64,000 bases of DNA, from contig NZ_RQWN01000001.1 of the NCBI RefSeq assembly GCF_003977755.1, positions 248,001 through 312,000 on the forward strand, written 5' to 3'. The stretch's first letter is position 1. Each line of letters begins with the position of its first letter. Below, in pieces: positions 61,836-64,000 of the stretch. Made by a program: the position numbers and the translations under genes. The notes beneath the pieces were generated by a model, which worked only from the letters and a program-made list of their open reading frames with translations, had not been told where the DNA came from and ran no database searches. This DNA is from Haloterrigena salifodinae (GTDB lineage Archaea > Halobacteriota > Halobacteria > Halobacteriales > Natrialbaceae).

Positions 61836-63350
61836 TTACGGCGCGATCCAGACGTTCGTCGCGGCGACGGCGGACATCTGGACGTTCTCGTTCTCCTGCA
61901 TGCTCACCTGCGTCGCGGCGGCGTCCCCGTCATCCTCGGCGACGGCGATCGCCGAGTGCTGTTCGTTGACGTTCTCCTGGGTCACGAACTGGGTCTGCTC
62001 GAGGGCGGCCGTCGCGTCCTGCGTGACGTCGCTGTTCTGCTCGGCGCTGGTGTCGTAGTCGTAGGACATCCCCGGCGCGTTCTCGACGTCGTTGCCGCCG
62101 ATGGTGACGGTCGTACTCGAGGTCTGCGCCTCGGAGTCGTACGTGTACCCCGGCGACGCGTACACGTTGAGCGCAGCGGCGGTGCCAATCTGTGCGTTGT
62201 AGTTCTGCTGGGAGGCCATCTGGACGGCCTCGGCCTCGCTGTCGTTGACAGCGATGGCAACCGCGGTGTTCTGGAGGTTGATATTAAGCTGCTCGACGGC
62301 CTGCTCCTGCTCGACGCTGGTCGTCGCGGTCTGGGAGTCGTCCTTGTCCTTCTTGTTCTTCGACGGCGTCTCCGTGTCGACGACGCTGCTGTCGCCGGCG
62401 GACGCGACGTTCATTTCTCCCATCGAGGCGAGCAGGTTGGCGGCGTTGGCGGAGCCGGTCTGTTCGTTGAGATTGGTCTGGTCGGTGACCTGGATCGCCG
62501 TCGCGGTGCTGTTCTCGCCGACGGCGATGGCGACGGCGGCACCCTGTTCGTTGACGTTCGTCTGTTCGACGGCCTGCTGCTGAGTCAGCCAACTGTTCGC
62601 GTTCTGCTCGGTGTATTCACCCTGGCCGGCGTAGATGTTCGACGCGTTGGCGGCACCTTCCTGCAGGTTCTGGTTGTGCTGGTCGGTCTGCTGAAGGGCC
62701 GTCGCCGAACTGTTCTCCGCGGCGAGGGCGAAGGCGACGCTTTGTTCGTTGTAGTTCCCCTGCGCGACGTCCTGGGTCTGGGTCACGCTGGCCTCGGCGG
62801 ACTGCGTGACGGTCTTTTTGTCGCCTTTCTCCGTGGCGACGCCCCAGCCGTTGAACTGCTGGCTGCCGTCGTCGCCCATGATCATGTAAACGGTGCCGAC
62901 GTCTTCGAACTGAGTCGTCTGGCTGCTGACGACGTTGTTCTCGGCCGACGCCTCGCCGGTCTGGGAGTTGGCGTTGAGCTGGTTGGCTTCCTGGATGGCG
63001 GTCGCCTCGCCGCCGTCGATCGCGATCGACACCGCCTCACCCTGCTCGTTGATGTTCACCTGGTCGACGTTCTGGTGCTGGACGACCTCGGTGTTGCTCA
63101 TCTGGTCCGCGTTCAGTTCCTCGGACGCGTGAGCGTCGATATACTCCTCAAGGCTCGTTTCGTTGAGATCGGCGCCGAAGACCAGGTAGAGGTCTTCGCC
63201 GTCCTCGAGCGCGTGAACCGAATCGGCCTGAACGTCGTCGTTGCCGCCCGCCATCGCGGCTGGCGCGCCGGCGGCCAGCATCGATATGGAAACGATACAG
63301 GCCATCAATACTGTCGTATACCGTGAGCGTCTCGTGTCTTCTTCTGTCAT
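61836..63350 (-). CDS. Secreted curlin-like Q/N-rich repeat protein, candidate functional amyloid
   Basis: 504 residues. A Sec-type signal peptide (basic start, hydrophobic core about 12-30, Ala-x-Ala near 32-34) is followed by a short acidic region and five repeats of about 55 residues starting near 91, 191, 257, 348 and 452. Each begins Q-x-Q-x-V-x-Q-x-N-x-N-x-Q and goes on to alternating Ala/Ile/Val (AVAIAV), then A-x-Q-x3-Q-x-N-x-N, Q-x-G-x-A and N. This is the spacing of curlin repeats (Q-x-G-x2-N-x-A-x3-Q) that stack as a beta-solenoid in CsgA. Linkers between repeats are polar and variable. No curli export gene is adjacent. Confidence 0.75.
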   Translation of the reverse strand: MTEEDTRRSRYTTVLMACIVSISMLAAGAPAAMAGGNDDVQADSVHALEDGEDLYLVFGADLNETSLEEYIDAHASEELNADQMSNTEVVQHQNVDQVNINEQGEAVSIAIDGGEATAIQEANQLNANSQTGEASAENNVVSSQTTQFEDVGTVYMIMGDDGSQQFNGWGVATEKGDKKTVTQSAEASVTQTQDVAQGNYNEQSVAFALAAENSSATALQQTDQHNQNLQEGAANASNIYAGQGEYTEQNANSWLTQQQAVEQTNVNEQGAAVAIAVGENSTATAIQVTDQTNLNEQTGSANAANLLASMGEMNVASAGDSSVVDTETPSKNKKDKDDSQTATTSVEQEQAVEQLNINLQNTAVAIAVNDSEAEAVQMASQQNYNAQIGTAAALNVYASPGYTYDSEAQTSSTTVTIGGNDVENAPGMSYDYDTSAEQNSDVTQDATAALEQTQFVTQENVNEQHSAIAVAEDDGDAAATQVSMQENENVQMSAVAATNVWIAP

Positions 63351-64000
63351 GGTAGCTCTGATTTTCGATCGTGAGTTTGTTCTGTTGCTGAACGATTCGA
63401 CGCGAACGGTCCTATCCCAAAGACAGACTTTGTTATCTACAGGTTGGAAAACGTATTAGTCGCCCTACTAACTAGAACTCCGCCGCTACTCGCGGAAACG
63501 ACCGTCTACCTCCGTCAGACGACCACTCGAACGGTAGATTACGCGCCGCCGTCCGGAGGTATCGACGGATCGACACGCGATACGCCACTACAGTCGACTT
63601 GCGCTCGAAATTCTTTGGTTCGAGAAGCTTCGTCGACAGCGAAATCCAAAACTACCGACGGTAGTAGTGATCGAATGACCGTTTCACGATCGAAGGGAGA
63701 TCCAGCGCGCGGTAATCGACAGTGAACGTGAACGGTTATCATCGATGGCGAGGAGAGGTCGGCTTCAACGGCGGCCGCGATCAGCACGGCGCGACGGCTG
63801 TCGTGGGAGCGATCGCGGCGCCTCTCGACGCGATGCGGTCCGACGCTCACCGGACGGGCCGAGAAGGGGACACCGACGATCAGCGCCGGGGACGGGAGCC
63901 GCGGGTCTCGGAGCCGATCGATCCATCACCGCTGCCGGACCAGCAATTCTCGCGCGATGAGTCCCAGTGTGTAGACGCGACGATGCCGGCATCACGCGAC
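63351..64000. other. Right-hand edge without a secure gene
   Basis: 63351-63460 is the promoter region of the curlin-like gene (AT-rich, with CTAATACG near 63453-63460 on the minus strand). A 6-bp hairpin (CTACCG/CGGTAG, 63652-63664) is followed on the minus strand by TTTT. From GTG 63722 a plus-strand frame stays open to the window edge (93 codons, acidic in its second half); it may be the start of a gene that continues outside. A minus frame over 63539-63850 is less convincing. Confidence 0.35.

Follow-up and report, generated by a model that had tools for sequence, protein, structure and literature searches.

Does the five-repeat gene near the end of this window, the 64,000-nucleotide stretch of the Haloterrigena salifodinae genome analysed here, encode a functional amyloid, and if so, of which kind? 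An earlier note had read the gene as a secreted protein made of curlin-like repeats. Archaea are known to form functional amyloid-like polymers, namely the sheaths of methanogens (PMC10593813), and curli-like repeats were noted in a single archaeal protein in 2012 (PMC3521004). For biofilms of Haloferax volcanii, staining with amyloid dyes has been reported, and the gene put forward there is homologous to a factor from Sulfolobus (PMC4180959). A search of open-licence papers returned no account of this protein family, or of a repeat-encoded two-component haloarchaeal system such as the one described below. The gene and its parts, in positions of the window, are:

61836..63350, minus strand: five-repeat secreted protein of 504 aa with an ATG start (open reading frame, repeat HMM, AlphaFold2)
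63249..63350, minus strand: likely secretory signal, residues 1-34, MTEEDTRRSRYTTVLMACIVSISMLAAGAPAAMA (read by eye from the sequence)
62928..63101, minus strand: repeat unit 1, residues 84-141 (AlphaFold2, repeat alignment and repeat HMM, as for units 2 to 5)
62808..62927, minus strand: linker between units 1 and 2, residues 142-181 (conserved non-repeat motif TQFEDVG...GW, low pLDDT)
62622..62807, minus strand: repeat unit 2, residues 182-243
62421..62609, minus strand: repeat unit 3, residues 248-310
62154..62333, minus strand: repeat unit 4, residues 340-399
61845..62021, minus strand: repeat unit 5, residues 444-502

That the protein is secreted and carries five repeats, as first proposed, is borne out by the likely signal, by the pairwise repeat alignments (10/10 lie 8.6-16.5 s.d. 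above shuffled repeats) and by the repeat HMM, which finds five domains at 322 bits. The hydrophobic N-terminus is also kept in homologues by sequence comparison. The motifs singled out at the time (Q-x-N-x-N-x-Q, AVAIAV and Q-x3-Q-x-N-x-N) are all present in the sequence, and the count of five repeats stands; the proposed repeat length of about 55 residues is refined to ~58-63 aa. Linkers between repeats span 1-71 aa across homologues in the repeat alignment, and the one between units 1 and 2 is 36-40 aa long in homologues. No Pfam or NCBIfam family matches the window protein. Two further segments, residues 45-75 (DLYLVFGADL...) and 146-170 (FEDVGxVYxxxG...GW), are conserved, non-repeat and modelled with low confidence, and resemble a small separate motif.

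The window protein and 45 relatives, 46 sequences in all, supply 230 repeats, and their alignment gives a consensus with two arms. The first reads Q-x-A-x-A-x-V-x-Q-x-Q-x-V-x-Q-x-N-x-N-x-Q and the second A-x-A-x-Q-x-s-x-Q-x-N-x-N-x-Q-x-G-x-A-x-A-x-N, and between them lie a short A-h-A-h-A segment and then a D/G/S turn. Every second residue is close to invariant, with a mean entropy of 0.58 and 0.62 bits, against 2.89 and 3.13 bits on the opposite, variable face, a gap reached by 0/100,000 permutations. The conserved face consists of 53% Q/N, 34% A/G/S and 0.4% charged residues, and the variable face is 25% acidic (D/E). This alternation fits two beta strands with an invariant Q/N face that is probably buried. 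Judging from the register, the two arms would face each other across the turn, with Q-N-N-Q set against Q-N-N-Q.

AlphaFold2, run with a 46-sequence alignment as input, places two strand stretches in each repeat (84-111/115-140, 182-211/215-242, 248-277/282-309, 340-368/372-398 and 444-472/476-502 for repeats 1 to 5), so that each ~58-aa repeat has two arms of ~26-30 residues. The prediction is thus one two-armed beta layer per repeat and five layers in total, with disordered linkers; the layers would presumably stack in parallel and in register. Hence beta layers with a Q/N-ladder logic and their stacking, as the earlier note had anticipated, are predicted, but its ten rungs, two curlin-type turns per unit, are replaced by five layers. 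The whole model is modest (mean pLDDT 60.9, pTM 0.51), and most linkers and the N-terminus fall below 50. These values would suit a Q/N-rich protein that is mainly extended or disordered and serves as a spacer or for storage, in which case the beta prediction would be an artefact of the alternating pattern. We consider this improbable, since the repeat cores reach a pLDDT of ~80-93, and a strict two-residue alternation conserved over 84 genomes would not be expected of a disordered spacer.

Structural comparison of the predicted five-layer protein with the PDB (Foldseek) gives only five matches at E<=10. Functional amyloid subunits take the first three places, namely FapC (9nqd, E 0.73), Pontibacter CsgA (8c50, E 0.77) and FapC again (9u4u, E 2.7). 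All of the PDB matches are non-significant, with a TM of ~0.05, and they serve as a pointer rather than proof, to which a common Q/N composition may contribute. A search of viral structures (BFVD) returned nothing at E<=0.001; the best match in this library is an uncharacterised protein (E 0.0076, probability 0.08), and as the library differs in size, E-values are not directly comparable. Such a match indicates how little can be concluded in this case from structural similarity alone. No viral relatives were confirmed in IMG/VR. By sequence, a PDB match to PhoQ (3bqa, E 0.03) covered one short stretch and was judged to be chance.

Is the protein, then, a curlin? A true but highly diverged CsgA/CsgB with ten rungs would account for the spacing of Q, N, A and G, which recalls curlin, and for the presence of Pontibacter CsgA among the top structural matches. 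Like curli subunits, the window protein is secreted and has repeats of Q, N, A and G in which one alternating face is invariant. However, Curlin_rpt (PF07012) matches neither the window protein nor any of 16 homologues. With the repeat HMM, Escherichia coli CsgA reaches 0.5 bits, within the range of shuffled sequences, CsgB is not listed in that search, and the repeat profile does not retrieve CsgA from the PDB. Failure of the search does not explain this negative result, because the same genome holds a true curlin-repeat secreted protein of 207 aa (L001 994-1617, plus strand; G000:C2:944884-945507), which PF07012 matches at 1e-36 over eight stretches. That protein shares secretion and Q/N repeats with ours, but its repeats are ~19 aa long. 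It may be of the type noted in PMC3521004, a curli-like protein of archaea. Across the class, the curlin model matched 2/294 genomes. The geometry differs too: curlin rungs take 22-23 aa (PMC10192328), compared with ~58 aa per haloarchaeal layer, and curli repeat numbers vary, whereas they are near-constant in the haloarchaeal family. The reported lack of csgG extends from the window to the entire genome, in which CsgG was not detected by a search that found the E. coli control, although for an archaeon, which has no outer membrane, this is a weak criterion. Taken as homology, the curlin label is not supported by these searches, and we regard a diverged curlin as very improbable; the earlier note's broader reading, a candidate functional amyloid, is upheld.

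A genome search places the family in 84/394 genomes of the class, 79 of them in the window's own family (Natrialbaceae) and five in three other families. Relatives occur in Haloterrigena, Natrinema, Natronorubrum, Natrialba, Halopiger, Natronococcus, Haladaptatus and similar genera, and a scan of named genomes spanning bacteria and archaea gave matches in haloarchaea only. One species of the same genus (G005) is without the entire family and offers a natural comparison. A single-repeat profile likewise finds 84 genomes, and in almost every case a large gene gives five matches. Five-repeat genes in nearly all matching genomes show that the repeats are not a product of chance or mistranslation, and the near-constant number indicates that it is under constraint.

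The source genome contains 12 repeat matches, five in the window gene, five in a paralogue and two that, by inference, are small partner genes. The paralogue has five repeats and a Tat signal and lies on a separate contig (L033 6431-7993, plus strand; G000:C3:72430-73992). Homologues of the Tat type form a single clade with 100/100 support.

The small genes lie upstream of the large gene's start codon, just past the window end and divergent from it, and encode two tandem secreted proteins of 117 aa:

63351..64000: in-window part of the intergenic region, ~1.1 kb in all, that separates the large gene from the small genes
G000:C1:312454-312807 (L032 1955-2308; start at 64454 in window numbering), plus strand: small partner 1, one repeat, 50 bits against the repeat HMM
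G000:C1:312822-313175 (L032 2323-2676; start at 64822 in window numbering), plus strand: small partner 2, one repeat, likewise 50 bits

The arrangement is conserved. A divergent small secreted Q/N-rich protein is found within 2.5 kb of the large gene at 39/43 Sec-type homologues, counting those loci with enough flank, and at 0/11 Tat-type homologues. The Tat loci include L095, which a script had filed under Sec but which carries RRDYVKG and falls in the Tat clade; their zero count provides an internal control against chance partner calls. Many partners have diverged past detection by the repeat HMM and are tied to the family by position, signal and Q/N motifs only. Modelled alone, the one-repeat partner gives a poor, low-confidence structure (pLDDT 51).

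Other secreted proteins are encoded nearby. Adjoining the small partners is a gene for a 210-aa Ser/Thr-rich acidic secreted protein (L032 3044-3676, plus strand), with a counterpart in another genome, G002 (L034 10165-10803). Neighbouring secreted proteins with GGDGGDGG tracts occur at L027 2167-3027, L050 1538-1912 and L053 2125-2544, and some of these tracts flank repeat motifs.

Several Sec-type relatives of the large protein carry a C-terminal PGF-CTERM. This is an archaeosortase signal for the processing and membrane attachment of surface proteins. That tail (PGF motif, transmembrane segment and basic end) is missing from the window protein, which may be released or retained in some other way. 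Surface residence, as implied by the tail in relatives, would also be expected of a beta-stack that does not polymerise, such as an adhesin, a spacer or an S-layer-associated protein, with the small proteins acting as ligands or caps. The near-constant five repeats suit a finite monomeric solenoid of this kind, and the AlphaFold2 model is itself a self-contained stack. Against this, the conserved one-repeat partners make little sense unless layers are added between molecules, none of the repeats stands out as a cap, and a fixed repeat number does not preclude polymerisation: FapC mostly has three repeats and yet polymerises (PMC12392863). We consider a non-polymerising stack less likely, and prefer to see the window protein and its small partners as a two-component, fibre-forming cross-beta system of the cell surface, to which we assign a probability of about 0.5.

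The closest analogy for such a fibre system is the FapC/FapB pair of Pseudomonas (9U4U, 9NQD). In FapC, imperfect repeats each form one cross-beta layer, joined by variable linkers and held by an Asn/Gln network (PMC12392863). The haloarchaeal proteins share with FapC/FapB imperfect repeats of ~50 residues, variable linkers and a Q/N network, as well as a mostly fixed, small repeat number and a companion subunit; the single two-armed layer that AlphaFold2 predicts for each repeat may correspond to the FapC layer. They differ in having five repeats rather than three, in their motif and in their setting, an archaeon without an outer membrane or outer-membrane pore, with PGF-CTERM in some members. 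With its long imperfect repeats and variable linkers, the plan resembles that of FapC more closely than that of CsgA, which is a resemblance and not membership. FapC (9nqd/9u4u) was not returned by profile or single-sequence searches of the PDB up to E=10; for want of a sequence match, FapC is retained as an analogy only.

Two other systems offer partial parallels. In curli, the genes for the major and minor subunits are adjacent, as are the large and small genes here. The sheath proteins of Methanospirillum and Methanothrix, likened by description, are also archaeal extracellular cross-beta or beta-arch polymers (PMC10593813), but they belong to other lineages, and that of Methanospirillum builds a tubular sheath and includes a cap domain. 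Judged by analogy, the haloarchaeal system probably works like FapC and curli by convergence, being not detectably homologous to either.

How might such a system operate? Sec export and folding into five layers are supported by sequence, structure prediction and gene neighbourhood: the large protein would be exported via Sec, and its five repeats would collapse into a stack of five beta-arch layers, each formed by one ~58-aa repeat. For the orientation of the faces, parallel stacking, polymerisation, the roles of nucleator and subunit and a biofilm or surface role, we infer the following. One face of each arm would form a buried Q/N/A ladder, and the disordered acidic linkers would loop out between the layers. 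The large protein would likely serve as a nucleator or cap, in some lineages anchored to the membrane by PGF-CTERM, and the small one-layer proteins would likely be the polymerising subunits, adding to the edges of the stack. Edge-to-edge stacking of layers would then give a fibre of the surface or matrix. In its most specific form, which we put forward tentatively, this would be a haloarchaeal functional amyloid of an origin independent of curli and Fap, working in near-saturating salt, in which a five-layer surface nucleator is extended by single-layer subunits, one layer per molecule.

The module provides a concrete two-gene fibre candidate in another haloarchaeal family than that of Haloferax volcanii. 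If the fibre is real, it would add a new variant, probably a convergent one, to the functional amyloids. Repeat-encoded amyloid would then have been invented independently in a form that works at high salt and has a natural monomer of one layer. Such a fibre would inform both the minimal requirements for a cross-beta subunit and the design of salt-stable protein materials.
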